Positions 10,645 to 48,041 of a stretch of DNA of 64,000 nucleotides are shown in pieces; the first letter of the stretch is position 1; each line of letters begins with the position of its first letter. The position numbers and the translations under genes are program-made. This DNA comes from a virus. The notes under the pieces are model-generated. The model was not told the DNA's origin and searched no databases. It saw nothing but the letters and a program-made list of their open reading frames with translations. The DNA is taken from the IMG/VR virus record IMGVR_UViG_3300025133_000044, positions 1-64,000 of that record, one strand, 5' to 3'.

Positions 10645-10933
10645 TCTTTATCTCCGTTTCCAAATCTTCCAAAGAATATTCAACATCTTTACCTTCCTCT
10701 TCTTGAACATTGTGATATCCTATCATCATGTTCAAGCTGTCTTCTAGCTGAGAATCTATTAGATCTAGGTCTTCCCTAATCCCCCTTACCTCTTTAGTTA
10801 GCTGTGTTAAATTGCGTGGATTTAAATTCATTTTTGAGAATGTTCGGAACCTGCCTCTGCAATCGTTTAAAATTGAGTTAACCAAGTCTGGCACAGTATG
10901 ATATTCTGTGGTATAAGCAATTTTTACTTTCAT
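10631..10933 (-). CDS. Unknown protein directly downstream of groEL
   Basis: 100 residues; N-terminal strand (MKVKIAYTTEYHTVPDLVN) and a long acidic coiled region (REDLDLIDSQLEDSLNMMIG). It overlaps groEL by four bases (ATGA), so it is co-translated with the chaperonin. No known family recognised. Confidence 0.7.
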   Translation of the reverse strand: MKVKIAYTTEYHTVPDLVNSILNDCRGRFRTFSKMNLNPRNLTQLTKEVRGIREDLDLIDSQLEDSLNMMIGYHNVQEEEGKDVEYSLEDLETEIKNEEG

Positions 10934-12501
10934 TTCTTCTCCTCTATTATAGCATTGCTCGTTGTAAGTAAGGTAGACACCACCGAGACGGCATTTTGTA
11001 GTGCTACTTTCGTAACTTTTGCTGGATCGACTATCCCCTCCTCCATCATGTCTACTATCTTTTCTGTGTTAAAGTCGTAACCATGTGAATGTACTTCATT
11101 CTCCACAAGATTTGCAATCATGTCTTCCGAGGCGCAAGCGTTGCGAGCCATTTGTCGTAACGGTGCCTCTAAAGATTTTCTTAAAATTTCAGCTCCTAAA
11201 CTTTGATCCTCGTTTTCACTATCTATTTCAAATGCTTTACAACGGATCAAAGCCACGCCGCCGCCGGGGACTATTCCCTCTTCTTGGGCCGCTTTAACCG
11301 CGCCTAAAGCATCTTCAATTCTATGTTTTTTTTCTATCATCTCAACTTCAGATGGAGCACCAACGTGGATGATTGATACCCCGCTAACCAATCGCGTGAT
11401 TCTTTCCTGTAGTTGCCGACATTCTTCAATACCTTCTGTTTGTTTGATTTCAGACTTCAAAGAATCGATTCGATTATCTATTTTTTCCCAATCAGCATTG
11501 CCGTCAACAATCGTGGTAAGATTTTTCAGTATCTCAATTTTCTTACAGGTTCCAAAGTCAACTAATTTAACGTCTGATAACTTTTTACCTGATTCTCTAG
11601 TAACAAAAGTCGCGCCGACTGAAAGGCACAAATCCTCCATAATCTTACGTCTTTCTGTCCCATAACGAGGAGCCTTAATCGCAGCAACTCTCATGGTTCC
11701 TCTCACAGCGTTCATGATTAAAGCTGCAAGAGCTTGACCTTCAATTTCTTCAGCCACAATAATAAAAGGTTTAGCCTCTCTAGCTGCTAGTTCGAGCACA
11801 GGAAGCATATCTTGTACAGCGCTGATTTTATGATCAGTAACTAACAAGATTACATCTTCGTATTCCACTACGTTTCTACGTTCGTCCGTAACGAACGCCT
11901 GTGCAAAGTAGCCAGAATCAAAACGGAACCCCTCGACAACATCAAGTCGAGTTTCCATTGACTTTGCCTCCTCAATCGTTATTGCACCGTCGTGGCCAGC
12001 TTGACTCACCGCTGTGGCTATTAGCTCACCAATTGAAGTGTCTCCATTTGCAGAAATAGTCGCAATATGTTGAATATCTTCATGTGAAGTTACTTGTTGA
12101 GCTAGATTAGTTAGATTCTCCACAATCTCCTTACATGCCTTATCCATTCCCCTCTTTAATTCGACCGGAGAACTGCCGGCTGCCAAGTATTTTTGTGCAT
12201 TATTGAAGATATCTCTAGCTAGTACAGTCGAAGTTGTTGTTCCATCGCCAGCTAAATTATTTGTTTCAGATGCCACCTGTTTTAAAATTTGGCAGGCTAT
12301 GTCCTCAAAAGGATCCTCAAGCTCCATGAATTTTGCCACAGTAACTCCGTCTTTGGTAACAACTGGATTACTTCCAAGCTTGGCAAGTATGACGTTTCTG
12401 CCCTTTGGCCCCAACGTTGTTGCCACGTTGTCAGCTAACTTGTTGACACCATTAAAGACTTTTCTCTGAAGTTCACCATCACTAGCATACTTCTTAGACA
12501 T
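10930..12501 (-). CDS. groL: GroEL-type chaperonin (Hsp60)
   Basis: 523 residues, slightly shorter than E. coli GroEL (548). The equatorial ATP site is intact: TLGPKGRNVIL, VTKDGVTVAK, DGTTTSTVLAR, and near the C-terminus VPGGGVALIR. The apical domain with APRYGTERRK is present. The disordered Gly-Gly-Met tail is missing; the protein ends AIIEEKK. It should form ring complexes that fold phage (for example capsid) proteins. The GroES-like partner lies 12 kb away at 24794. A sigma70-like promoter (12523-12550) precedes it. Confidence 0.97.
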   Translation of the reverse strand: MSKKYASDGELQRKVFNGVNKLADNVATTLGPKGRNVILAKLGSNPVVTKDGVTVAKFMELEDPFEDIACQILKQVASETNNLAGDGTTTSTVLARDIFNNAQKYLAAGSSPVELKRGMDKACKEIVENLTNLAQQVTSHEDIQHIATISANGDTSIGELIATAVSQAGHDGAITIEEAKSMETRLDVVEGFRFDSGYFAQAFVTDERRNVVEYEDVILLVTDHKISAVQDMLPVLELAAREAKPFIIVAEEIEGQALAALIMNAVRGTMRVAAIKAPRYGTERRKIMEDLCLSVGATFVTRESGKKLSDVKLVDFGTCKKIEILKNLTTIVDGNADWEKIDNRIDSLKSEIKQTEGIEECRQLQERITRLVSGVSIIHVGAPSEVEMIEKKHRIEDALGAVKAAQEEGIVPGGGVALIRCKAFEIDSENEDQSLGAEILRKSLEAPLRQMARNACASEDMIANLVENEVHSHGYDFNTEKIVDMMEEGIVDPAKVTKVALQNAVSVVSTLLTTSNAIIEEKK

Positions 12502-14296: not shown

Positions 14297-14932
14297 TTAG
14301 AAAACTATATCGGCAATTCCCAATTCAACTGCTTTTTCTGCATCAATATAAACATTTGTTTTCTTATTCATCATTTTTCTAATTTCTTTCTCTGACATGT
14401 TTGTTTCTTTAACCAGTGCCTCAACATAGAGTTTCTGTGTCATTTTGGCTTCTGAAAATTCGTTCTCCACGTCTGCTATATGGCCATGTTGACCTGAAAT
14501 AACGCCATGAATCATGACTCTACAGTTCTTGCCAATTCTCCGTTCGCCTTCGGTGCCGGCAGCGAGTAACAGCACGCCGGCCGACATTACCTTGCCAATA
14601 CCGTAAGTCCTAATGGGTATTTGTCCTTTGATAAGCCGCATCATATCATAAACTGCAAACATTTCAGAAGCTTGGCCGCCATATGTTGAAACATAAAAAT
14701 CGATTGGTTCTATAATTAATTTTAATTCTTCTGAATCATCGGATACGCTGCTAATCCCTGTTTGTTCTAGAGCTAGCAAGCCATAAATTGCTTCCGAACA
14801 CTTTTCTTCTGTAATATCCCCGTATATTCCAGTAACTCTTAATTCTGGCTTGTCGAGTGCCACACTTAACTTAGATACTAAGTCATTAGCATCTTCTGAA
14901 ACCTCTTCTTTATTATTTGAAGCAAATTTCAT
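14297..14932 (-). CDS. clpP: ClpP-like serine protease (S14)
   Basis: 211 residues, the normal ClpP length. The fold landmarks are visible: FYVSTYGGQASEMFAVYD (substrate-binding strand), the nucleophile serine in GKVMSAGVLLLAAGTEG, and the catalytic histidine in RVMIHG. The usual acidic triad position lies in TNVYIDAEKAVELG, where asparagine seems to stand in place of aspartate. No Clp ATPase is present in the window, so the protein may use a host partner or act alone, for example in virion maturation. GGAGGTGAGCA precedes the ATG. Confidence 0.9.
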   Translation of the reverse strand: MKFASNNKEEVSEDANDLVSKLSVALDKPELRVTGIYGDITEEKCSEAIYGLLALEQTGISSVSDDSEELKLIIEPIDFYVSTYGGQASEMFAVYDMMRLIKGQIPIRTYGIGKVMSAGVLLLAAGTEGERRIGKNCRVMIHGVISGQHGHIADVENEFSEAKMTQKLYVEALVKETNMSEKEIRKMMNKKTNVYIDAEKAVELGIADIVF

Positions 14933-18344: not shown

Positions 18345-21300
18345 TTATCCCAACATTTTAAAAGAATGTCTAATCGATCTCGTACTAAATCCCCAATCCT
18401 CATTGTGATCAAGTTTAGCTGCGTACGGCCTGTTTAATTGTACAATTCCCCTATCGTGGTCTTTGACACCCCAACATCGAATTGTTGTCATAGTAGAAGT
18501 ATCGTCAATTACCTTCAAGATCCAATAAGTTTTACCGTTTTTAGTCTTCTTACTAATCTTCTCTCTTGGGATGAACCAGGCGACGCCCAATCTTTTATCC
18601 CATTTTGCGATGGGTGGAACTTTCCACTTGTCTATGGATTCAAGGATGTTATCAGTCATGACCAACTCAAATGGGAAAAGGCCTGTCAGCGAAGATACAT
18701 ATTCAATCTTTTCTTCACGCGTGAAGTCCTTTTCTGGAGAATATAGATCTATATTTTCCCGAAGTCTTTTGAGGTTTTTAGGCCGGTCTTGGATACATGC
18801 CATCCAAAAATGCTTACATCCAGTAAACCTTTCATCAATAATACTGTCAAGGGCGCCGGAGCGACACAACGCGTCCAAGGCCCTTTTGTTCAACTTAGAA
18901 TATACGACATCTTCATTAAATAATAATTCCTCGGGTGTCGTGAACGGTCTATTGTTGATGATCTGTTCAATTGCCTTGTCTCCTAACCCCTTAATAGAGC
19001 TAAAAGGTTGAATGAGAGTTTTCCCATCTTTTGTAAGTTCCCATTGAGCCGTAGAAGTGTTGATATCTATCCCTTGAATATCGAAGCCATGCTTTCGTGC
19101 GAGACTTATAGCTGCTTCTTTGCGGGTTTCAGGTTCCTTATCAAGAAAAGCTGCCATCCAACATTCTGGAAAATAATTTAATAAGTAGGCACACTGGTAA
19201 GATAGAATAGAATAAGAAACTGCATGAGATTTGTTGAAGCCATAGCCGGAAAAATATTCAAAATTCTGCCACATCCTCTCTGCGGTAGAGCGATCGATCT
19301 TCTTTTCCATGCATCCAAGAATAAATCTATGTTGGAGTTTTTCTTTCTCTTCTGAAACTTCTCCCGTTCCTTTCTTGGTTAGTAGTTTTCTTAGTTTGTT
19401 ACCGTCGTCAAGAGAAATGTTCTTTCCAAGCTTATGCGCCAGTATGGCAATTTGCTCTTGGAAAATCAAGAACCCTGCAGTCTCTTCTGTATGTTCTTTA
19501 ACAATTTTATGAGGATACATGATATCCTTAAAATTCTTTTTCCTTGAAACGTATTCTTTAGCGACGCCGGCACTTAAAGGTCCTGGACGGTAAATAGATG
19601 TAATGGCGGAAATATCAATTATGTTATTGGGGCTAGCTTTCTTACAAAAGTTTTGGGCGCCTCCGTTTGTAAACTGAAAAATCCCAACAAACTTGCCCTT
19701 ATGAAAGATATTCTTATACACTTTTTGGTCGTCGAGATCAATAACGTCTGGATGTATATTATTATCATAGTACTCCTTAATATTCTTATAAGAAGGATTC
19801 TCAACACCATGATGTCTTCTTAAGACATGGCCGATCGCTGACTGGATCATTTCTAAAGTAGTGAGGCCAAGCAAATCAAATTTGATAAACCCAAGCGGCT
19901 CCAGATGGCGTACGTTCTGTCCCTCTGACCATGGAGTTTGGATAACTCCCTTGGAGCAGATTAACGGCATATGTTTATCCAAGTCCTCGCCGATTACAAC
20001 ACCTCCTGCGTGTCGACTAGTCGATCTGACTTGGCCTACGAGAGCTTCGGCGTGCGTCTTAATGTGAGGATATTTGTAAAGAAATCTCTGCAAGGAATCT
20101 GAATATTCCATAACTTCCTCGAAGGTAGGAACATATACTCCTGCTTTGATGCCATGTTTTGCTTTCGCCTTCGGTGTGGCTTCGCGAACCATTACATTCG
20201 TCACATTATTGACTTCGGTAAAATCAACACCGTAGAATTTACCGATATCTTTGATAAGCGATCGCAACTGCAACGTATTATAATTAGAAATAGGAACAAC
20301 CGCAGTCTCTCCCCAGGCCTCTGCTAAAATTTCTTTAAGCCCGAAAGCGTCGCTGACGTCATAGTCAATGTCAGGGTAATCTTTGGCGTCAGAGCGTAAA
20401 AATCGGCTAAACAGTAAACCATGTTTGATCGGATCAACCTGCGTGATCCCCAATACGTAAGCGACGAGAGAACCAGCAGCAGATCCGCGGCCCGGGCCGG
20501 AGAGCATATTTTCATTCGCTTTGTCAGCGATCGCCTTCATCGTTAAAAAGTATTTACTAAACCCTCTGTTGTCGATAACTCCCATTTCATGCCGAAGTCT
20601 TTTGATATATTGTTTATCCTCATGTAAGTTTCGGGCACGAAGGCCAGTAATACAAGCTTTGGTCAAAGCTTCTGTAGCTGTGGCGCCGTCCGGAACGACA
20701 AATTCAGGGAGCCTCACTGTATCGTCGGGCATGAAATCGCTAATCCTCTCATTGGCAATCCAGTGAGTTTTTACGAGTGAATCGTAAATTAAATCATCGT
20801 CATACTCGACTTCACACTCCTCAGAATATTTTTTATAAGAAGCCCACATCTGGTCACCATTTTTTGGATACAATTCCATACCAAGTTCATCAACATCAAT
20901 TGGTAATTCTGACGTCAACCATTCTGGCTTGCTCGTTTTGCCTAACCACCCAAGACGCTTGTATAGCTCTCTGTCTTTAAACGCGTCCGGACTTGGGTAG
21001 TGGCTGTCGGCAGTTGAAATTAGCTCGATACCAAACTCTTTTTGCATCTGGATAACGTATTTGTTTAACCTGTGCTGTTCCGGCACATTGTTCCACTGTA
21101 GTTCACCGTACCACCTGTCTCCAAGGGTAGCGACCATCTTCTTCGTTGTCTCGCGCATCGCGTTTAAGATTGCGTCTTCGTCTTCTCCAATCTTCTTGGT
21201 TTTTGTTTTACCATTCTCGTCGACATACTCTTTATAGATACAGTTGTCCCAGTAGTCTCCAGCGTATACACCGCCGAGGCATGCGGAGGAGGCCATGATA

Positions 21301-21833
21301 CCTTCTCCATATTCCTCAAGCATCTTATAGTCTAGGCGTGGATATCGATAGAAATTATCTCCCTGGTGAGAGTCAGAAACAATCTTATATATGTTATTTA
21401 AGCCTTTTTGATTTAATGCAACAAGTACAAGATGCCTTCTAGAATTGATTCTATTTTTTGTCTTCTGCTTTGAGGCTGACTCGTCCTCGGCTGCAACCTT
21501 GTCGGTGTCATTAATAACTTTTTTGGCTTGCTTTTTATCCGTTTTAACCCTTTCATATTCCTCTTTCCACTCTTTGATGGAAGGAATAAAATAGGCTTCA
21601 ACGCCAAAGATTGGTTTAAATTGTTTACCCTCTTTCTTCATTTTTTTTGCATGAAGAACTTGATGTGAAAGCCCATTCATATTTCCGTGGTCGGTTAAAG
21701 CCAGGGCGCCCATGCCATTTTGGTATGCAAAGTCCATGTGCTCCGGCGGGTACCCGAATCCGTCGAATACAGACCCCGCGACACTATGCGCATGAAGGCC
21801 CACAAACGGGATTTTAGATTTAATTCGTTCCAT
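18345..21833 (-). CDS. dnaE: DNA polymerase III alpha subunit (family C)
   Basis: 1162 residues. The PHP domain starts at residue 12 (VGLHAHSVAGSV, ALTDHGNMNG). A Lys-rich insertion at about 95-130 splits it. The polymerase core has GPGRGSAAGSLVAYVLG (446-462), the catalytic aspartates in YPDIDYDV (486-493), and the conserved YRPGPLSAGV segment. A C-terminal OB fold (KNGKTYWILKVIDDTST) ends the protein; the tau-binding domain found after it in E. coli is missing. Family C replicases are uncommon in T4-like phages. A sigma70-like promoter lies at 21851. The window also encodes a family A polymerase. Confidence 0.95.
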   Translation of the reverse strand: MERIKSKIPFVGLHAHSVAGSVFDGFGYPPEHMDFAYQNGMGALALTDHGNMNGLSHQVLHAKKMKKEGKQFKPIFGVEAYFIPSIKEWKEEYERVKTDKKQAKKVINDTDKVAAEDESASKQKTKNRINSRRHLVLVALNQKGLNNIYKIVSDSHQGDNFYRYPRLDYKMLEEYGEGIMASSACLGGVYAGDYWDNCIYKEYVDENGKTKTKKIGEDEDAILNAMRETTKKMVATLGDRWYGELQWNNVPEQHRLNKYVIQMQKEFGIELISTADSHYPSPDAFKDRELYKRLGWLGKTSKPEWLTSELPIDVDELGMELYPKNGDQMWASYKKYSEECEVEYDDDLIYDSLVKTHWIANERISDFMPDDTVRLPEFVVPDGATATEALTKACITGLRARNLHEDKQYIKRLRHEMGVIDNRGFSKYFLTMKAIADKANENMLSGPGRGSAAGSLVAYVLGITQVDPIKHGLLFSRFLRSDAKDYPDIDYDVSDAFGLKEILAEAWGETAVVPISNYNTLQLRSLIKDIGKFYGVDFTEVNNVTNVMVREATPKAKAKHGIKAGVYVPTFEEVMEYSDSLQRFLYKYPHIKTHAEALVGQVRSTSRHAGGVVIGEDLDKHMPLICSKGVIQTPWSEGQNVRHLEPLGFIKFDLLGLTTLEMIQSAIGHVLRRHHGVENPSYKNIKEYYDNNIHPDVIDLDDQKVYKNIFHKGKFVGIFQFTNGGAQNFCKKASPNNIIDISAITSIYRPGPLSAGVAKEYVSRKKNFKDIMYPHKIVKEHTEETAGFLIFQEQIAILAHKLGKNISLDDGNKLRKLLTKKGTGEVSEEKEKLQHRFILGCMEKKIDRSTAERMWQNFEYFSGYGFNKSHAVSYSILSYQCAYLLNYFPECWMAAFLDKEPETRKEAAISLARKHGFDIQGIDINTSTAQWELTKDGKTLIQPFSSIKGLGDKAIEQIINNRPFTTPEELLFNEDVVYSKLNKRALDALCRSGALDSIIDERFTGCKHFWMACIQDRPKNLKRLRENIDLYSPEKDFTREEKIEYVSSLTGLFPFELVMTDNILESIDKWKVPPIAKWDKRLGVAWFIPREKISKKTKNGKTYWILKVIDDTSTMTTIRCWGVKDHDRGIVQLNRPYAAKLDHNEDWGFSTRSIRHSFKMLG

Positions 21834-25388: not shown

Positions 25389-27245
25389 TTAAACTATTTC
25401 GCATGCTCCGCCGCTACAGGCGATTTCTCCGGAAAGATTAGTATTGTCTTCTATTTCAATAATTTTAGACACATCTACCTCCCTCAAAGCCTTATACAGC
25501 TCTTCATATTGTTCTTGTGTACAATCTTCAAATGGAGGTTGTTTATATGTATGTTTTGAATATGGTAAAATAGAAAGCCCGTTATAAATAGACTTATTTT
25601 CCCACATCCATTCTGATACGGCGCGCCATTCGTCTTCTTTTATTGATATGGTCGCAGAAATATTATGAGTATTTTGACCACGCTGGTGGCCAGGTTTAAT
25701 CCATTCCGCAGACATTTTTTTAATTCTTTTTAATAAATCAATTGCTGTTTCTTGTCTGGTGATCGCGCCGGTGGGGGCCTTTTGTGGCACCTCAATAACG
25801 GCCGTGTCGTGAGGTCTAAAAAATTCATCCTTAATCAATTCAGGATGATGTATTACCAAATGAGTATAAATTGGCTCATTCTTACCTACTCTCATTCTTC
25901 GAATATAATATTCATTATGCCAAGCATGAATTCCGCTAGATGTACCTAAAGTCAAAGAAGTCGTCCCAGCTGGTTTTACACAAGTCGTCCGTGCCGACGG
26001 CCTAATGCCTATCTGGCCTGCGACGCGTCGGTTTTCTTTTTTAACCTCTAGAGCAGCAGATTTCATGTCTAAATTTAGTACCGTTCCAGATGCTATACCA
26101 GTCATCGATACACCGATCAAAGCCTCTTTTTCCGTTGTTTTCTTCCAGATATCTCTTAGATAGTGAAAATCAGTATATCCAGCCTGTAAAGTAGCGATAA
26201 AGGTTGCAGCTTTAACTCTATATATTAATTCTTCTTGAGTTTCTATATCCGATGCATTAATTTCTACCAGGTTACAAAACTGGTACGGACGAAGAGCAAT
26301 CTCACAGCAGGGATTAGTACCCCAATCTTTGTCGTTCGAAAAATAAAAACCTGGCTCTCCGCAGCCAGATGCCTTAACTCGTTCCCACAAAGACATGAAG
26401 TAATCATGAGTTATACGGTGACGAAGCAGCACTACAGAATTGTTAGCTCGTCCTCTTTGTGGGTTTGCTTCCCACCAATTGCCTGCTTTTGCGGCCAGCA
26501 TCTCTTCGTCATCAGCTGAAAAAAGTGAAATAAGAGCAGCGCGACGAATCCCCCCGGCAAGAACAGCATCAGCAATATGACAAATGATATCATGAACTTC
26601 GATTGGTTCAAGCTGATCTCCCAAATCTTTTTCATCTAAGATTCCTTTGATTTTTAATAAGCACTCTTTAAGAGGCTGCGGACCGGGTGCTTTGCCTCCA
26701 GAAGTAATTAGTCTGGCGCCCTTCGGGCGGATGTCGCTAAAATCAAAACGTATTTTAGAGCCGCCCTTAAAATAAGAATTTACCAAAACTTTAACTGCGT
26801 CAGCCCATCCTTCGATTGAATCGCCTACAAGAAAACGACGAGTTCTTTTTGTACTAAGGCCTTGAATTTCGGGGAGTTTTTCAACATGATGCTTCTGTAC
26901 TGAATATCCGACACCAGTTCCCCCAAGTAAGAGAAACATGCACTCGCTAAAAGCAGCAGGATGATCGATAGACATGTAAGCACAGTTATATATCCGGTTA
27001 GGAGCCACCTCAATCGGCTTACCCCCGAACTGCATTGATCGCATTGATGGTAGGACTTTCTTTTCATAAACATATTTGTAAACATTTTCAATATCCTCTC
27101 TTAACGAAGGATATTTTTTAATGTGCATTTTTTTATTCCTAGTAACGACTTCTTTCCATGTTTCTCTTCTTTCCTTTTTTGGCAGATATTGTGCATATTT
27201 CATATGTACAGTGATATCAGATAAAATCTTACTAGCTAGTTCCAT
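25389..27245 (-). CDS. nrdJ: Class II (B12-dependent) ribonucleotide reductase
   Basis: 618 residues. It matches the monomeric adenosylcobalamin-dependent ribonucleoside-triphosphate reductase: LPSMRSMQFGGKPIE and NRIYNCAYMSIDHP near the start (first active-site cysteine), GGTGVGYSV, the thiyl cysteine with partner residues in FCNLVEINAS, RTTCVKPAGTTSLTLGTSSG, and the C-terminal redox pair SGEIACSGGACEIV. It makes dNTPs from NTPs without oxygen or a second subunit, but needs cobalamin. Overlaps the helicase gene by 14 bases. Confidence 0.95.
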   Translation of the reverse strand: MELASKILSDITVHMKYAQYLPKKERRETWKEVVTRNKKMHIKKYPSLREDIENVYKYVYEKKVLPSMRSMQFGGKPIEVAPNRIYNCAYMSIDHPAAFSECMFLLLGGTGVGYSVQKHHVEKLPEIQGLSTKRTRRFLVGDSIEGWADAVKVLVNSYFKGGSKIRFDFSDIRPKGARLITSGGKAPGPQPLKECLLKIKGILDEKDLGDQLEPIEVHDIICHIADAVLAGGIRRAALISLFSADDEEMLAAKAGNWWEANPQRGRANNSVVLLRHRITHDYFMSLWERVKASGCGEPGFYFSNDKDWGTNPCCEIALRPYQFCNLVEINASDIETQEELIYRVKAATFIATLQAGYTDFHYLRDIWKKTTEKEALIGVSMTGIASGTVLNLDMKSAALEVKKENRRVAGQIGIRPSARTTCVKPAGTTSLTLGTSSGIHAWHNEYYIRRMRVGKNEPIYTHLVIHHPELIKDEFFRPHDTAVIEVPQKAPTGAITRQETAIDLLKRIKKMSAEWIKPGHQRGQNTHNISATISIKEDEWRAVSEWMWENKSIYNGLSILPYSKHTYKQPPFEDCTQEQYEELYKALREVDVSKIIEIEDNTNLSGEIACSGGACEIV

Positions 27246-30531: not shown

Positions 30532-31635
30532 TTAATCAATATCATAAAATTCTTCTGCTTTCCCTTCCTTCTTATCAAAACGCATGATAATATCTTCATC
30601 CATGATTTGAAGGACTCGATTGCGGAATTTTTCGTTAGTTAGTTTATCTTTCCACTTAGCCGCTTGAAACTTTTCAGTTGTGCCATTTTCGTAAACTAGG
30701 TTATACCAAGCACCGCTTTGCTCTAGTGAGTCTGATCCCTTAATAGCTTCAAGCCAGCTCTCCTCGTCCTGGATACCGACTTCTCCGCCCCAAAGAATTT
30801 TAAATGTGCATTGTCTACCATCTGTACCAAATCGACTTTTCTTCAGTGTTACTTTAACTTCTGAACCAATTCTGTATCCATTTTCATCTTCGAGAAAAGA
30901 TGCTTTTGCCTTACGTCCTGTTAACCATATACGTAATGAATAGGCATAGTGCATTGCTTTGCCGCCAGGTGTGACGTAAGGTGTCGTCATTGCTTCTGCT
31001 GCAAATCTAGTAATGTTAGTTTTAAGCTGGTTCAGTACTAAAAAAGTAGATTGTGAGCCGGCGATAGGAACTGTCAACTTAGACATGCCTTTTGCTAAAA
31101 TTCTCGCTTTAACCGCCATTGAAGATTGGGGATTAAAATCTCCGTCGACGTCGCTAATAGAGGGCGTGAGAGCGAGAGAATCCCAAATAAATAACATCTT
31201 GTTTTCGTTAGAACCTAGCAACTCTTCAATAGTCTCTAGGACATATTCAACGCTAGGTGGCTGCATATATAATATATTATTTACATCACAGCCGGCGCTG
31301 GCTAAGAATCCAGGGTCAATTGCAGATTCAGCATCGAAGTATACGACATCAATTCCCATCTTTTGAGCATTCGCCGCAACTTGAGCTGCCATATAAGATT
31401 TACCAGAACCTTCTAGGCCGGCAATTTCAATAATTTTGCCCACTGGTATACCAGCTAGTTGGCCTCGACAGATGATACTGTCGAGCCATCGCGAGCCAGT
31501 TGGGATCCACTCTTTAACCTGTGTTGGGTTATCCTTCGTTAGATCGAAGGCAACCTCCATTCCCGCTTTTTTATTGACAAGATTTCTCATCTCATCAATA
31601 TTTAGTCGACCTAGTTTCTTTGCTTTCTTTGCCAC
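30532..31635 (-). CDS. uvsX: UvsX/RecA-type recombinase
   Basis: 367 residues from a GTG at 31635 (CGAGGGTACC upstream); earlier in-frame codons fall inside a terminator. Walker A is GLEGSGKSY (about residues 73-81), Walker B follows as KMLFIWDSLALTPS, and loop regions include NQLKTNITRFA and a PGGKAMHYAYSLR segment typical of RecA. The protein forms filaments on single-stranded DNA for recombination-dependent replication, working with the gp32-like protein two genes upstream. Confidence 0.93.
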   Translation of the reverse strand: MAKKAKKLGRLNIDEMRNLVNKKAGMEVAFDLTKDNPTQVKEWIPTGSRWLDSIICRGQLAGIPVGKIIEIAGLEGSGKSYMAAQVAANAQKMGIDVVYFDAESAIDPGFLASAGCDVNNILYMQPPSVEYVLETIEELLGSNENKMLFIWDSLALTPSISDVDGDFNPQSSMAVKARILAKGMSKLTVPIAGSQSTFLVLNQLKTNITRFAAEAMTTPYVTPGGKAMHYAYSLRIWLTGRKAKASFLEDENGYRIGSEVKVTLKKSRFGTDGRQCTFKILWGGEVGIQDEESWLEAIKGSDSLEQSGAWYNLVYENGTTEKFQAAKWKDKLTNEKFRNRVLQIMDEDIIMRFDKKEGKAEEFYDID

Positions 31636-31647
31636 GGTACCCTCGTT

Positions 31648-31688
31648 TTTAAAAATTGAGGCCTCTGTAAACCCAGGCCTCCCTGCGG
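31648..31688 (-). terminator. Intrinsic terminator, copy 1 of a duplicated element
   Basis: Minus strand CCGCAGG, then GAGGCCT-loop-AGGCCTC followed by AATTTTT. The 12-base CCGCAGGGAGGC starts seven bases after the stop of the gene at 31696. A similar element with matching distance follows the ssb gene. Confidence 0.75.
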
Positions 31689-31695
31689 CTATCAA

Positions 31696-31943: not shown

Positions 31944-32687
31944 CTAGTTTCCCAAAAGCTCTTTAAAGGCTTGGTCAACGGAACTCGTGCCTTTATTACT
32001 ATACCTTGACGATTCAGAAGAAACATCCTCAGCATCTTCCTCGCTTAGGAGGAATTCATCAAGCATTCCTTGAACCTGTTCTGGAGTCTTTCGTTCAAAA
32101 ACAGTACTGTAATCAGGCACCTGTTCAAGTAGAGATTGAATATCCTCTTCCTTTTCAACCAAAGGCGAATTGCGGCGCCGGGGAGTGATAGTCGTCTGTG
32201 GGAACTGGGCGCCGGCCGGCTTACCATAATTGATGACCAGATCAACTCCTTCGTTCACATCGGTGATATCACCGTATTCCGGGTTGAGAACAAGATTTAA
32301 TAGTTCTCTATAGGCCATTTTACCAAAGCCCCATAGTCGCACACCCTGATCTTCCTCGCCGCGTACAAGAACGGGACTAAAAAAGCGTTGCCGTGCTGAC
32401 AATGTCTTCGCCATCTTGATGGCGTCATCACTGCCATCCTTATAAAGTTGACGGATAAAGTCATCAAGAGGATCACTTTCTCCAAAGTTTTTCTTTGGGC
32501 TCAAGAATCCAGGGTTCTTACCTAGGTTATAGTGAAACCAGTATTGCTTAAACGGATCTCCGTCCGAAGTTGGCAAAATACGAATTGTTTGTTCACCGTC
32601 CTCTGGACGCCAGAAAACGCTCTTGCCTGCGCCATGATTTTCCAAGGCGTCGCGCTTTGCCTTCATTTTTTCTAAATCAATACCCAT
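31944..32687 (-). CDS. Single-stranded DNA-binding protein, gp32-like
   Basis: 247 residues. The family layout of T4 gp32-like proteins is visible: a basic N-terminal helix (EKMKAKRDAL), the OB-fold core starting SVFWRPEDGEQTIRILPT, FHYNLGKNPGFLSP, then GVRLWGFGKMAYRELLNLV, and an acidic C-terminal tail ending FKELLGN that would bind partners. A metal-binding cysteine cluster as in T4 is not obvious. Together with UvsX it belongs to the recombination and replication set. AAGGAGAAAGACT precedes the ATG. Confidence 0.85.
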   Translation of the reverse strand: MGIDLEKMKAKRDALENHGAGKSVFWRPEDGEQTIRILPTSDGDPFKQYWFHYNLGKNPGFLSPKKNFGESDPLDDFIRQLYKDGSDDAIKMAKTLSARQRFFSPVLVRGEEDQGVRLWGFGKMAYRELLNLVLNPEYGDITDVNEGVDLVINYGKPAGAQFPQTTITPRRRNSPLVEKEEDIQSLLEQVPDYSTVFERKTPEQVQGMLDEFLLSEEDAEDVSSESSRYSNKGTSSVDQAFKELLGN

Positions 32688-32777: not shown

Positions 32778-33626
32778 CTATAAATTTGAATTTTCTTCTT
32801 GTATCAAAGAAGCGTAATGTACGCTATAGATGTAATTTTGATCGTAACTTGTTGAATATATTGAAAAAGCAACATCAACTTTTTCTTCTTTTTTCTGCGC
32901 CCTTACAAAAGCACGTATATCCTGTAATAGATTTTTATTAGATTCTAATTCAACTGAGTTAATCGCAAAATAATATATTTTTATACGAGGGTATTTTAAA
33001 TCGTAAAACATTTTCTCTTCTTTCGATTCGTAATCAACAAGCCCAAAAGTACCAATTCTCGCTGTTATTGGTATCATGGACGGTGATAAAGTAGTCAACA
33101 AAGGCTCTATATTATTATACACATTCATCATGTGATGTGTTCCCACAATCAGCTCATTTAGACTATCCCAGTATTTTGTAATAGATAATTGTGTGACAAG
33201 TTTTTCAACTAACATATTGTTTACAATATAAATTTTTTCAAAAACAGCAGAACGAGCGTACTGTTGTAACACTTGCAAGGTTAACCTATGTTTTAACTTT
33301 GCCTCCACACCCAATGATATTTCATCTGGCTTTATGTATAAAACGCTAATCTGCTTATCTTTCAACTCTTCTAAAATTCTTAAAACAATACCACTTATAT
33401 TCCCAACTCCTGAAAGGATGAGTATGATGGGGGCATCCTTTAACTCTAGTTTAACAGATGTATAGTTTGCTTCATATTGTTCATGACTTTCCTGTTCTTC
33501 AATTTTTATAAAGGTACCGTCATAATCATTATCTTCTGTATCCATATAAAATATTTTATATTCCGGATATCCTGAAAAAATTTTTGCCATGGCGCAGCCG
33601 GGATGTCCTAGACCAACTATATTCAT
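32778..33626 (-). CDS. Putative tubulin/FtsZ-like GTPase-fold protein
   Basis: 282 residues. Reading against the FtsZ fold, the order matches: T1-like IVGLGHPGCAMAKIF (residues 3-17), T2-like YMDTED, then hydrophobic PIILILSGVGNISGIVLRIL (66-85) in the place of the GGGTGTG loop, VLYIKPDE, a helix KHRLTLQVLQQYAR, and IYIVNN (T5/T6 region). The glycine signature is degenerate, so GTP binding is uncertain; a Rossmann-type alternative remains. Its ATG overlaps the polymerase stop. No partner genes are recognised. Confidence 0.5.
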   Translation of the reverse strand: MNIVGLGHPGCAMAKIFSGYPEYKIFYMDTEDNDYDGTFIKIEEQESHEQYEANYTSVKLELKDAPIILILSGVGNISGIVLRILEELKDKQISVLYIKPDEISLGVEAKLKHRLTLQVLQQYARSAVFEKIYIVNNMLVEKLVTQLSITKYWDSLNELIVGTHHMMNVYNNIEPLLTTLSPSMIPITARIGTFGLVDYESKEEKMFYDLKYPRIKIYYFAINSVELESNKNLLQDIRAFVRAQKKEEKVDVAFSIYSTSYDQNYIYSVHYASLIQEENSNL

Positions 33627-34801
33627 GCTATTTGTTTCATACTCCCAAAATCTGTACCCATACTCAAATGGCTTGTAAATTTACCATATATAGTATCAGT
33701 AAATATATTGATTACCTCTTGCAAAATGTCCTTTTCTTCTTTGCAAATGTCTATTATCAAGCTGTCATGAATACAAAATGCAATCTTAGATTCGTATTTT
33801 TTTAACAGATTATGTACCCTCAACGCTGATCTTAAAAAAAGATCACTAGCAGTGCTTTGTACTAAATAATTTAGTACTTTGTCTTCTTTTACTTCTATCT
33901 TTCTACCAAAAGGAGTAGTAACAACACCATCATGATAATATTTTTTTATTATCTCATTCTTATCTATGTATTGCCCTAGCTTTTTGTTTCGAGCCTTGGG
34001 GTTATACAACCATGCGAAAACACGTCTCTTGCTCTCTTCTCTATCATATTTTGAATCAAAAACATGCTTATTGATTAAATTATGGATATCTCCCACAGGT
34101 TGTTCACGCCCTAAGAGACCGAATAAAGTACGTATTTCTGCTGCACTAAAATCCAATTCAACGAACAAATCATTATTAGGTCGCAAAATGCTTCGTAGCT
34201 CTTTATTTAAAGTAAGGATTGGGAAGCTTTCCTTTTCAGTTGTTAATCGGCCAGTCACGGTTCCCCAAGGCTTATATTTAATGTAGTTTGCCGAATTTTT
34301 AATTTTATTAAGTGTTTCTCTGTTTTTTATATTAATAAAATCCAAATTTTCAACACGTGTGTTTAACTCTTGCTCACTAATTTCTTTAAGGAATTTTACG
34401 AGTTCTAACATAAAATTATAGTTACTTGGTTTTTTATAATGTTCAAAAACATAATTTGCTATTTTGTTTTTAACTTCACAGTACTTAAGCAGAAACTTTT
34501 TTGGAACCAAGTCATAAAAACAAACATCGTTTAAATTGACTCCGGCTTCTTTAAAAGAAGTTAGAAAAGCCCTCGCCTTGGTTTCGACTTCACTCCACTC
34601 CTCTTTAAGATGTTCAGGACAAGTCTCCGAGAGAGATTTCCCTGCAGCCCAGATCTGAGCATATTCAACAGATCGGTTTTCAAAGTGTGGTGTATGGGCC
34701 CATGTATGTGTTAAACTTAAGTTGTTGGGATAATGGTAAAGATCACCGTCGCTATAAATAGCATAACATTCTTTTTTGTTGTCTAGCGTTTGAAATAGCA
34801 A
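33623..34801 (-). CDS. Family A DNA polymerase, polymerase domain only
   Basis: 392 residues with a TTG start (GAGGAACA upstream). Motifs: TVTGRLTT (181-188), motif A DFSAAEIR (217-224), motif B REESKRRVFAWLYN (254-267, T7 type R-x3-K-x7-Y), QSTASD (315-320), motif C HDSLII (345-350) where HDE is usual. The 3'-5' exonuclease domain of Pol I and T7 polymerase is absent, and the first 170 residues match no known domain. It could act in repair, primer-gap filling or lesion bypass beside the family C enzyme. A tubulin-like gene follows with ATGA overlap. Confidence 0.88.
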   Translation of the reverse strand: MLFQTLDNKKECYAIYSDGDLYHYPNNLSLTHTWAHTPHFENRSVEYAQIWAAGKSLSETCPEHLKEEWSEVETKARAFLTSFKEAGVNLNDVCFYDLVPKKFLLKYCEVKNKIANYVFEHYKKPSNYNFMLELVKFLKEISEQELNTRVENLDFINIKNRETLNKIKNSANYIKYKPWGTVTGRLTTEKESFPILTLNKELRSILRPNNDLFVELDFSAAEIRTLFGLLGREQPVGDIHNLINKHVFDSKYDREESKRRVFAWLYNPKARNKKLGQYIDKNEIIKKYYHDGVVTTPFGRKIEVKEDKVLNYLVQSTASDLFLRSALRVHNLLKKYESKIAFCIHDSLIIDICKEEKDILQEVINIFTDTIYGKFTSHLSMGTDFGSMKQIA

Positions 34802-34808
34802 ATGTTCC

Positions 34809-36155
34809 TCATTTTTTGTTTAAGACACCAGTCAAAGGCGCGGGCACTCGATCGGGCGAAGCTACTTTGGATTCTGCTTCCCTTTTTCTGCGATCGTAAA
34901 TAGACTTTGGATTACCGTGCCAATATTTGCCTTCTGTATTAAATATAGTTTTCAACATGCCCCTAGTCAAGTCATTTATATAATCTAACGCTGCTCCAGA
35001 TCCAAACATCCTGCTTCGTCTAATTAACTCTTTAGAATAATTAGAAAAATTAACTTTATTATGAGGAGTATTAGACTCTAATAATCTGAGTTTTAAAATA
35101 ATTTTTAGCCAGTATTCGCTGCCGTATACGTTAACGTGTCCCGGCGCATCAGCAAATGGAAGGTGAGCGGAAAGGAACAGTGGTTCTCTAAAATTCTGTT
35201 GTTGTTTCACTTTAATCTTGGAGCATTCTCCACTGGAGTTGGTTTCGTATTTTATTTTTGTGTAAGCCTCAAATTGAGAATAGAAAGTATTATAAAAAGA
35301 AAACATATAGTTTTTAAAATTATCAAGTTCTGCAAGATGGGCTTTTTCATAATAATATTCAAAAACATTTTCAAATTGAATACCGTAATTTCCCATGTAT
35401 TTTTTTGCACCCAGAACTCCAGCATCTTCAGAATTCGGCAATGCGCCGGAGGCGACATTAAAAACCAGGCGCCACGGAGCATTCTTATCTACCATAAAAC
35501 CAAACTTTTTTGCTGTTTTTACGAAAAATACAAAATTAGGATCGCTAACATACTTTAAAACATTTTTATTGTTTGCTACTCCATGCAGTTCTGGTGCGAT
35601 TTCTAACATCAAACCACTAATGTAAGGACTACAATGGTGTGATAAAATATATCCGGTTCTTGTAATCGGAAAATAATAGACTATTCTGCTAATATAAATT
35701 AAAAACTGTTGCATGAAATCATGAAAATTTTTAATTTTTTCAAAACGACGTTCAATCATTAAATATTTTTCAACAAAATCATTATATATTTTGTTCACGT
35801 ATTGATAGTACGACCACTCTAAGTCACCAGCTCTCTGAGCTTTATGAACCTTTATCCTTCTATACAACAAGCTTTTTTTGTTGAGGCCAGGATCCATTTT
35901 TCGTACGTAGCCGCGCATATCATTAAAAGCCTCGGCTACAAAATCGATAGCTAGTTCAGTTCTGTCCCCGCCAGTATAAATTTCTGCCAAGTTTGCAACA
36001 TTAGCCAGATAAATTGCATCTCCTCGCCGGTCTATTCTACCATAAAGAAGTTGTTTTCGTTCTAAGTCGAAATGTTTTACACCATCGAAATTAGGATAAA
36101 AATTATGTAAATTACTTTTGGAATTGAAAATAGCTTCTGTGACTTTATTTGACAT
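34809..36155 (-). CDS. Unknown 448-residue protein
   Basis: 448 residues, rich in aromatic residues (many Y and F), mostly helical, with a Pro/Lys-rich tail (PDRVPAPLTGVLNKK). AGAGGAAAATAAATT precedes the ATG. It lies between the family A polymerase and baseplate genes. I see no catalytic motif. Position and size fit a baseplate-associated or replication accessory protein; undecided. Confidence 0.7.
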   Translation of the reverse strand: MSNKVTEAIFNSKSNLHNFYPNFDGVKHFDLERKQLLYGRIDRRGDAIYLANVANLAEIYTGGDRTELAIDFVAEAFNDMRGYVRKMDPGLNKKSLLYRRIKVHKAQRAGDLEWSYYQYVNKIYNDFVEKYLMIERRFEKIKNFHDFMQQFLIYISRIVYYFPITRTGYILSHHCSPYISGLMLEIAPELHGVANNKNVLKYVSDPNFVFFVKTAKKFGFMVDKNAPWRLVFNVASGALPNSEDAGVLGAKKYMGNYGIQFENVFEYYYEKAHLAELDNFKNYMFSFYNTFYSQFEAYTKIKYETNSSGECSKIKVKQQQNFREPLFLSAHLPFADAPGHVNVYGSEYWLKIILKLRLLESNTPHNKVNFSNYSKELIRRSRMFGSGAALDYINDLTRGMLKTIFNTEGKYWHGNPKSIYDRRKREAESKVASPDRVPAPLTGVLNKK

Positions 36156-44657: not shown

Positions 44658-47600
44658 TTAATCGTCAAATGAAGCGCCGCTTCTGGTAATTATAAAGTCA
44701 AGGGCTATAAATTCAATAGCTCTTGCAGGCTTTAAGAAGATTTTAGCGTATAGAATATTTCTATCAACTAAATCTGGCGTTGTGGTTGTCTCGTCCAGCA
44801 CAACCCTAAAGTCCGTTAAGCCTAATCCAGCTTTGACACCCTCCAAGAAAGGCTCGACCTGACCAGTAAACTTATCCCACGTGGCTACAACATTCTGGTC
44901 GAAAAGAATTCTAGAAGCGATTTGTGAAATTTCTTTCTTAATGAAGATAAGAAGTCTTCTTACGTTGATTCTGTCCAAGGCGGAAGGAGTTACCTGCAGG
45001 GTTTTCTGGCCAAAGATAACGATTCCTTCAGCTGGGAAACTAGCGATTGGGTTAACATTTGCATCGTAAAGTTTATCGCGGAGAGCAGAGGTGAGACGTT
45101 CTCTTACCCCAATTACCGGTAAACCTGCCGAACCTTCGCTTAAGCCGCCGCGAGTAAAGCCAGCTGGTGCGAACCAAACTGCTGATTTTCTCTGTGAGCT
45201 TGAAAAAGTACCAAGAGCGACAACAGAAGGCGGAACATATAATATAGCGTCATTGACGTTATCTTTAATACGCACCCACGGGTAGAAAGCACAGCCATAA
45301 CTCGAATTGAGGGACAGATCTTTTGCTTTATTAACGATATCAGAGACAGTACCCATTCGAGCGGCCTCGTCATCATCATTTTCGTGTCTTGGCTTATAAC
45401 CGCCTTCGACATCGATAATAGCCAAAGCATCAGCACGATCCTCACAAGCGTTAACTAACATAGTATTTAATTTAGAGTTTGTGAGGCCCGGTATAGTAGC
45501 AACATCGAATTCTGCAAATTCGCTATCCGATAAGATATCAATTGCTTTTTTGACCGAGTAATATGCATAATTAGTATTTTCGGAGCCGTTGTCTATATAT
45601 TCATTACGGAAAGGATCGGCTTCTGTTATATCCAATCCATCAAAGCCACCGAACATGGGAGAAGTAAACCTATTCCAATCTCTTTCCAACACTTCTGCAG
45701 AAGAGGTGACCGATGGAGTGCCTGTCTCGCCAGCAGTTATAGAACGGCCGCTAGCTCTGGAGCCACTTACCCATATCGCCTTTGAAGTATCAAACCCGCC
45801 GCTGCCGCTAACTGATTCTACATCATCTAGGGTAAATACCCAAGAATATTTTGTTTCGTTAGCCAAACTACCTGCTAGCACGCCTGCAGGTTGACCTCTT
45901 AGAAGATCAAGGTTGGTTTTATCAAATATTCTAGTGTCTGCTAAAGTTGACTGGTAGCCGAAGTAAGCACGAGTTGCCATAACCATATTGCCCTCAGAAG
46001 CAGAAACTCTAAGTCTTGTAGAGGGCCACTGTAGAGAGGCGGTGAGACCACTAGCATTTGACGGAGTCGTAAGATGGTTGCTTTCTACTGCGGCGCCGGG
46101 GCCAACGCTGATCAGGCCGGCAGCTGCATGGCCAGTAACCAAAGAATCAGCAGGAAGTGATCCAGTACTGGCAATCCATGGATCAATATCGACACCAGCA
46201 TTATCAGTTATATTAGAAACTAGTGAACCGCTTAAAAGCTGAAGTTCTCTTGGGATAACAGGTCCATAGACACCATAAGGCAATAGACCTTCGGCTCCTG
46301 CGTCGTCGACAATACGTTTGGTTTCCACTCGAACATACTTAGATCTGTTGGGATATTCTCCATGCTCAGTAATAGTTTTGGTAGTTTGATTATAAGCGTA
46401 ACTTCTATCACCCACAACTTTCTTTATGTAATCAGCAGAATTTGGATTTAAGTTAAGTCCGCTAAAACGCTCAAGAATAACAGGATTGTTATCTGAATCT
46501 CCAGCTGCTCTAACAGCTAAAGTAAAAGTACCAAACTTATTAAAGTTATCAGTTGGCGCTTTGATATCCTGAAGGGAGATCTTAATATCTCTATTTATGT
46601 GCTCTCCGCTATCGTGAGCTACAAATCTAAACAACTCTTCTGTGTCGACGGTGGGATTAAAGCTAGCTGTAGTAAGACCTCTGGTATCTTGAGAAATATA
46701 CCAACCAGTTCTAGCTGCGACGGCTTTTTGTAAACGGTCTGCCCAATCGACATCCCAGCCATTGCCCTGGAGACCTACAACCGCACCCCAGAACTGGCCT
46801 GTCGAAGTGACTGCTGCTCCGGTGACAGCCATATCATTTAAAACATTAGTTTCAAAAGTTTCACCAAGCCAATAAACTTGTTCAGAGTCAGCTGGAGTTA
46901 TCTGAGTATTTGTTTTGGTTGGGTCCGTATTAAAAAGTTTTCTAATGTACAAATCACTGTCTTTATCAAAATTGAATGTCGCAGCTTTTACAGTTGAGCC
47001 AGATGCATCTTTTACTTTTGCTGTAAACTGTTGATTTGTTGATCTAATTAGTACGCCACAACCTTCTGTTGCTCTTCCATTGGGAGCTGTGCCAGTTATT
47101 TCAACGGTTGAACCCCCATCCTGTACATACCATATAGCAGCTAAAGTTCCCGTAACAGCAGGGCATGTGCCGCCGCCGGCCCATGCCGTCGCCCCGCCGC
47201 CGCTGTTGGCGAGGATCACATTGTCGGTCACCGCGGATCCTTCTGTGGCCGTTATACTATTCCCGACCGTACCATTCACACTTGAAACTAAGCGTACGCC
47301 TGCGGTCGTCACCGGATCAGCCACGGCCTGGACCTTTAAAGTGCCCGCTGTATATGCAGCGTTGACCGCGTCTATGATGTTTGTCGCGAATTGAGCTGCG
47401 TTGCTATTAGCGTTCCCAAAAGCTATAACAGTCGCTGTCGAGGTCGACGTGGTATTATCTATATCAAACTCTACAGACTGACTGTCAGCATCATATATCT
47501 TAAGTTTTCTTGTGTTTGCGGCGCCGGCGGTGCAGGACGTGGCTACAACTATACTATGAGCCCCATTTCCAGAATTAGTAGCTGTATATTGATCTCCGTC

Positions 47601-48041
47601 TGGCGTCACAAACAAACCAAATGCCCCACCACAGGTAGCGCGATCGGTAGTTAATAACTCATCAGTTCTCCAGCCTGGCAATGCTTTGTCGAAGGACTCG
47701 TAACTTGTTTCAGCAGAAGTTGGGTGGTCACCCAAAAGTCGGTAGACAGTACAAGGAGAGTTATTTCGCAACCAAGCTTGAACTGCATATGCAGCATAAG
47801 TTGGAGCAGTTAACGCTCCATTACGCCATACGTCCCCGCTCGGAGTTCCCGCCGAGGGTCGACCAAAGATTTGAACAAACTCTTTAAATGTTTCTACTTT
47901 AATCGGCCTGTTTGCCGGACCTTTTGCAAAACGACCAACGATTACTGGTCCCATGCGCTCCGGAAGTGCCGGTAATGCGGACTCGTCAATCTCATCCATA
48001 AAAATACCGGGTGAAATAAATTTAAATTTATCGACTGCCAT
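44658..48041 (-). CDS. Tail sheath protein (gp18-like), extra-long
   Basis: 1127 residues versus 659 in T4. The N-terminus (FKFISPGIFMDEIDESAL, VGRFAKGPANRPIKVETF) and the C-terminus (GIVIFGQKTLQVTPSALDRI, NVRRLLIFIKKEI, VVLDETTTTPDLVDRN) are the conserved inner sheath domains. Between about residues 130 and 350 lie Ser/Thr/Ala/Gly-rich beta segments resembling bacterial Ig-like or jelly-roll insertions, and a further insertion follows near 600-720. These should protrude from the sheath surface. A late motif and a stem-loop lie in the leader. AAGGGAG precedes the ATG. Confidence 0.93.
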   Translation of the reverse strand: MAVDKFKFISPGIFMDEIDESALPALPERMGPVIVGRFAKGPANRPIKVETFKEFVQIFGRPSAGTPSGDVWRNGALTAPTYAAYAVQAWLRNNSPCTVYRLLGDHPTSAETSYESFDKALPGWRTDELLTTDRATCGGAFGLFVTPDGDQYTATNSGNGAHSIVVATSCTAGAANTRKLKIYDADSQSVEFDIDNTTSTSTATVIAFGNANSNAAQFATNIIDAVNAAYTAGTLKVQAVADPVTTAGVRLVSSVNGTVGNSITATEGSAVTDNVILANSGGGATAWAGGGTCPAVTGTLAAIWYVQDGGSTVEITGTAPNGRATEGCGVLIRSTNQQFTAKVKDASGSTVKAATFNFDKDSDLYIRKLFNTDPTKTNTQITPADSEQVYWLGETFETNVLNDMAVTGAAVTSTGQFWGAVVGLQGNGWDVDWADRLQKAVAARTGWYISQDTRGLTTASFNPTVDTEELFRFVAHDSGEHINRDIKISLQDIKAPTDNFNKFGTFTLAVRAAGDSDNNPVILERFSGLNLNPNSADYIKKVVGDRSYAYNQTTKTITEHGEYPNRSKYVRVETKRIVDDAGAEGLLPYGVYGPVIPRELQLLSGSLVSNITDNAGVDIDPWIASTGSLPADSLVTGHAAAGLISVGPGAAVESNHLTTPSNASGLTASLQWPSTRLRVSASEGNMVMATRAYFGYQSTLADTRIFDKTNLDLLRGQPAGVLAGSLANETKYSWVFTLDDVESVSGSGGFDTSKAIWVSGSRASGRSITAGETGTPSVTSSAEVLERDWNRFTSPMFGGFDGLDITEADPFRNEYIDNGSENTNYAYYSVKKAIDILSDSEFAEFDVATIPGLTNSKLNTMLVNACEDRADALAIIDVEGGYKPRHENDDDEAARMGTVSDIVNKAKDLSLNSSYGCAFYPWVRIKDNVNDAILYVPPSVVALGTFSSSQRKSAVWFAPAGFTRGGLSEGSAGLPVIGVRERLTSALRDKLYDANVNPIASFPAEGIVIFGQKTLQVTPSALDRINVRRLLIFIKKEISQIASRILFDQNVVATWDKFTGQVEPFLEGVKAGLGLTDFRVVLDETTTTPDLVDRNILYAKIFLKPARAIEFIALDFIITRSGASFDD

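Follow-up and report, generated by a model that had tools for sequence, protein, structure and literature searches.

The locus and its distribution

The DNA analysed (the window; 64,000 nucleotides of a 103.5-kb virus record) carried an open reading frame (ORF) at exactly the span given in the initial annotation, 32778-33626, with the minus strand as added detail (Table 1); the plus-strand frame of the same span contained stops throughout and allowed no reading. The strings on which a tubulin/FtsZ-like assignment had been proposed were all found in the order described: GLGHPGCAMA (residues 5-14), MDTED (28-32), SGVGNISGIVLRIL (72-85), QVLQQYAR (118-125) and IYIVNN (132-137). The stop of the family A DNA polymerase (PolA) gene overlapped the start of the tubulin-like gene (ATGA). 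The family A polymerase had been named as a neighbour and the phage had been called T4-like, and both statements held, the first by a Pfam DNA_pol_A match and the second by genes for a T4-type major head protein, portal, head protease, tail sheath, single-strand DNA-binding protein (SSB) and UvsX.

Table 1. Position of the tubulin-like gene, its protein elements and its neighbours in the window
Feature	Position	Strand	Basis
Tubulin/FtsZ-superfamily gene, degenerate (predicted)	32778..33626	-	ORF, ATG start, 282 aa; AlphaFold pLDDT 94.2; FtsZ/TubZ fold matches in the PDB
T1-loop equivalent GLGHPGCAMA, residues 5-14	33585..33614	-	G5, G7, G10 and C11 at 97-100% of 121 members
T2 equivalent MDTED, residues 28-32	33531..33545	-	D29 in 95% of 121 members
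Region of FtsZ T3/H2, residues 47-56	33459..33488	-	Short helix, E49, Y51 and E52 conserved, no GAG loop; DSSP and conservation
T4-loop equivalent SGVGNISG, residues 72-79	33390..33413	-	Tally of 121 members
Family-specific motif Q-x-Y-x-R-S, residues 121-126	33249..33266	-	Q121, R125 and S126 invariant in 121 members
Strand and T6 equivalent IYIVNN, residues 132-137	33216..33233	-	N137 in 97%; model; segment aligned to FtsZ by hhalign
Central helix, H7 equivalent, residues 152-172	33111..33173	-	DSSP; Y152, W153, N157, H165 and N168 conserved
Region of FtsZ T7/H8, residues 173-190	33057..33110	-	NxDxxD and H8 absent
C-terminal mixed alpha/beta domain, shortened, residues 191-272	32811..33056	-	DSSP; full-length fold match
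Short family A DNA polymerase, polymerase domain only	33623..34801	-	Pfam DNA_pol_A 1.9e-13; conserved catalytic motifs
gp32-like SSB, downstream neighbour	31944..32687	-	Pfam gp32 4.2e-12; phrog_1192 1.9e-25
UvsX/RecA-like recombinase	30532..31695	-	Follows the SSB gene

Compared with a 69%-identical relative, the tubulin-like gene had a dN of about 0.18 and a dS of about 1.8 (near saturation), and is under purifying selection. It was taken as a real gene because dozens of contigs have a homolog (about 34-70% identity) at the equivalent position and dN was far below dS.

IMG/VR was scanned with the polymerase and SSB that flank the gene, and the ORFs read out between them yielded 62 distinct full-length homologs, the query among them (34-69% identical to it); a profile-guided scan found relatives encoded in at least 581 IMG/VR stretches. 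Gene order was counted in 76 loci found by protein similarity and chosen without reference to their neighbours: SSB lay downstream in all 73 loci with room for it and PolA upstream in 59 of 62. These loci are the nearest relatives, so the figures may drop further out. The gene is thus carried by hundreds of uncultured, mostly marine T4-like phages, between the PolA and SSB genes; the marine label is our assumption from the nature of the related phages and general knowledge of IMG/VR samples, not from sample metadata. Each of ten related contigs (94-184 kb, completeness unknown) had one copy, and PF00091 detected no canonical tubulin or FtsZ elsewhere in the genome of the window or in those ten contigs.

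Neither the window protein nor a divergent member had a relative by tblastn in 50,697 phage records, and E. coli FtsZ and phiKZ PhuZ used as seeds in viral contigs recovered no relatives of the family. Patterns drawn from a closer alignment of the family matched 123 times in 84,980 species genomes of bacteria and archaea, and none of the matches was a relative; only those patterns that could be made were used. With no relative in these genomes by those patterns, the family looks phage-specific. No split or diverged copy was found in Flavobacterium phage immuto, Microcystis phage Mel-JY01 or Rhodothermus phage RM378. Immuto and Mel-JY01 are T4-like and have the same polA...ssb-recA order without the tubulin-like gene, so the protein is not an obligatory or universal part of the replisome. 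The PolA-SSB interval of immuto (L173; 1346-2318) was occupied by two unrelated small ORFs (151 and 171 aa).

Several other genes of the phage, all on the minus strand, were recorded. The window encoded a DNA polymerase III alpha subunit of bacterial type (PHP, DNA_pol3_alpha and finger domains; 18345-21833), which gives the phage two polymerases, this one and the short family A enzyme without an exonuclease domain. Directly upstream of the PolA gene was a 448-aa ORF (34809-36155) with no Pfam or PHROG family. A B12-type ribonucleotide reductase (25389-27245) was 67% identical to the Mel-JY01 enzyme and 58-60% identical to those of Oceanospirillum and Vibrio phages, where the match was annotated as 'recombinase'. 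The tail sheath protein (44658-48041) was unusually long at 1127 aa; it matched a 496-position sheath family along its whole length and must therefore contain large insertions. A GroEL (10930-12501; phrog_5725, 8.7e-139) and a ClpP-like protease (14297-14932; 4.5e-28) were also encoded. Phage tubulin and HSP60 co-occur according to a survey of jumbo phages (PMC7824862).

Predicted fold and nucleotide site

Sequence similarity to known families was slight. Single-sequence searches of Pfam, PHROGs and the PDB with the window protein gave no significant match, NCBIfam gave only scattered weak matches across the 62 members, and PF00091 did not match the family. Local alignment with hhalign placed family residues 130-160 (T6/H7) on FtsZ 158-189 (P 0.025), which was weak and suggestive only; the score was reached by none of 100 column-shuffled decoys. 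The FtsZ alignment consisted of E. coli FtsZ and seven of eight retrieved proteins called 'FtsZ' in phage records, and such matches in phage records seem mostly to reflect contamination of unverified contigs with bacterial DNA. The link to FtsZ at the level of sequence is weak.

An AlphaFold2 model of the window protein from the 62-sequence alignment (pLDDT 94.2, pTM 0.92) had the order beta-glycine loop-helix-beta, a short region, beta-glycine loop-helix-beta-helix-beta, a 21-residue helix and a mixed alpha/beta domain. Its top 50 Foldseek matches in the PDB were all FtsZ or TubZ over the whole chain (E from 6e-14, TM 0.60-0.71). Among the viral models of BFVD, the one that matched it best was a phage 'FtsZ Cell division GTPase' (E 4e-13, TM 0.74), and the next matches were cell-division and tubulin-like proteins of phages. 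A second AlphaFold model, which used 40 aligned sequences from divergent subfamily members (pLDDT 94.1, pTM 0.91), again had only FtsZ, TubZ or tubulin among its top 50 PDB matches, at full length. Both models contained the Rossmann-like N-domain, the central H7 helix and the C-terminal alpha/beta domain; TM was 0.60-0.73 across their PDB matches, and the rmsd of these models, 4-6 A, is that of a distant relative. The tubulin/FtsZ fold put forward in the initial annotation was therefore recovered in two subfamilies, and on these models membership in the superfamily at the level of fold is very probable.

The nucleotide site was mapped by sequence register and secondary structure, without 3D superposition, and conservation was tallied over 121 family members. 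The T1 equivalent had the consensus G[LI]GxAGCxIA. T3 was reduced to a short helix with E-x-Y-E. Most members had G[SA]Gx[IV]S[GA] as the T4 equivalent and none of the 121 had the canonical GGGTG(S/T)G; no acidic motif corresponding to T7 NxDxxD was conserved after H7. Helix H8 between H7 and the next strand was absent from both models, and neither model had the T7 aspartate or the C-terminal helix H11 of PhuZ. N137 (97%), Y152-[WYF]153 and N157 (97%) aligned with residues of FtsZ that contact guanine, namely an asparagine in T6 and, in H7, an aromatic residue and an asparagine/aspartate. Near-invariant residues specific to the family were Q121, Y123, R125, S126, H165 and N168.

Judged by its motifs and models, the protein is not a canonical GTPase, because T4 is replaced, T7 NxDxxD and H8 are missing and T3 is reduced. 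The T1 glycines and the putative guanine-contact residues N137 and N157 are about 97% conserved, so the protein may bind a nucleotide without normal hydrolysis, binding being inferred. The altered GTP-binding loop that the initial annotation had noted is common to all 121 relatives; that claim stands and is extended, as the T7 motif and H8 are also missing and the family is widespread and syntenic.

Possible roles of the protein

The reading preferred here, held at slightly less than even confidence, is that of a phage-only pseudo-GTPase tubulin that keeps nucleotide binding, lacks the usual hydrolysis and serves as a scaffold or positioning factor in replication; the function is inferred. Translation of the protein would be coupled to that of PolA, as inferred from the ATGA overlap, and the three proteins PolA, SSB and the tubulin-like one would be produced as a set. 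Through the T1 loop, N137 and N157 the protein would still bind a nucleotide, probably with guanine as its base, and would not hydrolyse it in the usual head-to-tail way, an inference from the loss or alteration of T3, the T4 threonine and T7. The protein might then act as a stable scaffold or positioning factor, as a monomer, a dimer or a non-dynamic filament, for the phage replisome of PolA, gp32-like SSB and UvsX. The gene neighbourhood suggests a role in replication and does not prove it.

The initial annotation had named a Rossmann dehydrogenase-like fold as the result that would refute it, and structure prediction with fold search did not find one. An NAD-binding Rossmann or TrkA_N-type protein had some weak support: TrkA_N matched 20 of the 62 members (best 6.8e-6; none for the window protein itself), the family profile matched KtrA over residues 3-98 (E 9.6e-4), and the T1 loop reads as GxGxxG. 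However, these matches were limited to the first 100 residues, beta-GxGxxG-alpha-beta-D is common to both folds, and the top 50 fold matches of either model included no Rossmann enzyme. The protein is not a dehydrogenase, because the whole chains of both models match FtsZ, TubZ and tubulin; a Rossmann or TrkA identity was rejected and is left with very little probability. A GTP-driven phage filament like PhuZ or TubZ, which would position, segregate or move phage DNA or capsids with a variant T4 and a catalytic residue supplied from elsewhere, is unlikely but has more in its favour, namely the tubulin/FtsZ fold of both models, tubulin-like proteins of phages in the best fold matches to viral models, conserved T1 and guanine-contact positions, and a T1 region resembling that of phiKZ PhuZ. 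Against it, none of the 121 members retains T3, the T4 threonine, the T7 acidic residues or H8 intact; these elements form the hydrolysis site and the protofilament interface in phiKZ TubZ, where T7, the base of H8 and S9 make the canonical interface and the catalytic aspartate lies in T7 (PMC3678025). The related contigs (94-184 kb, completeness unknown) are also below the size of nucleus-forming jumbo phages.

The missing H8 and T7, the face for the next subunit, would be expected of a capping mimic, and FtsZ is the closest fold; a host-directed mimic, which would cap host FtsZ or assemble with it and stop the infected cell from dividing, was considered. Other means of FtsZ inhibition by phages are known, for example lambda Kil (PMC11762379). 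This role is doubtful, since the strict position between PolA and SSB and the inferred coupling to PolA favour replication, the sequence is very distant from FtsZ, and no retained surface similarity was shown. Equally doubtful is a regulator of replication that senses a nucleotide (e.g., GTP, dGTP or an alarmone) without oligomerising: the putative pocket is conserved with its catalytic parts degraded and the gene is placed with polymerase and SSB, but there is no evidence of a ligand and the fold is classically self-assembling. The non-hydrolysing scaffold remained the preferred reading. Its wider form, still more tentative, is that a phage-only tubulin lineage without hydrolysis has become dedicated to replication in an abundant group of T4-like phages of the ocean, where it would scaffold the replisome or organise a compartment and not form a GTP-driven filament.

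The open-access literature searched, which cannot prove absence, described no tubulin-like protein encoded in a T4-like replication operon; as a lineage of non-jumbo T4-like phages, this degenerate replication-operon tubulin appears to be new. Phage tubulins have so far come mainly from nucleus-forming jumbo phages and TubZ partition systems. The family would widen the known occurrence of phage cytoskeleton-like proteins to hundreds of non-jumbo T4-like phages and to a core replication operon. Nature here provides a test of how the tubulin fold is used without its GTPase cycle, and spatial organisation of replication by a tubulin-family protein becomes a possibility that can be tested in T4-like phages.

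Comparison with known systems

Compared with FtsZ (S. aureus 7ojb and Odinarchaeota FtsZ1 9v7v), the predicted structure shared the two-domain fold and central H7 (E 6e-14, TM up to 0.73), and the T1 glycines and T6/H7 asparagines were in register with the family. In contrast, identity was only 10-15%, T3 was reduced, and the family lacked GGGTG(S/T)G, T7 NxDxxD, H8 and the long C-terminal tail.

Matched TubZ chains of Bacillus plasmids and phage c-st (4ei7 and 2xka) had the same fold but were larger (about 380-410 aa). TubZ proteins are GTP-driven and have the partner TubR; no partition gene was recognised beside the tubulin-like gene. Phage tubulins already known are PhuZ in nucleus-forming jumbo phages (PMC10299810, PMC13282480, PMC9123017) and TubZ (PMC3678025). 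PhuZ and phiKZ TubZ resembled the family in being phage-encoded, with a tubulin/FtsZ fold and a similar N-terminal T1 region, and no family match between PhuZ and the tubulin-like proteins was found at the level of sequence. Unlike the family, PhuZ is an active GTPase with the T7 aspartate, H8 and the C-terminal H11 (PMC3678025), and its hosts are Chimalliviridae of more than 200 kb (PMC10299810), compared with contigs of 94-184 kb, of unknown completeness, for the tubulin-like gene.

FtsZl1 and FtsZl2 (PMC2875224) are, like this family, divergent side branches of the superfamily that were recognised from distant similarity. These FtsZ-like families were described through an intact GGGTG(S/T)G loop and occur in a membrane-remodelling gene context (PMC2875224), whereas the tubulin-like family has an altered loop and lies among phage replication genes.
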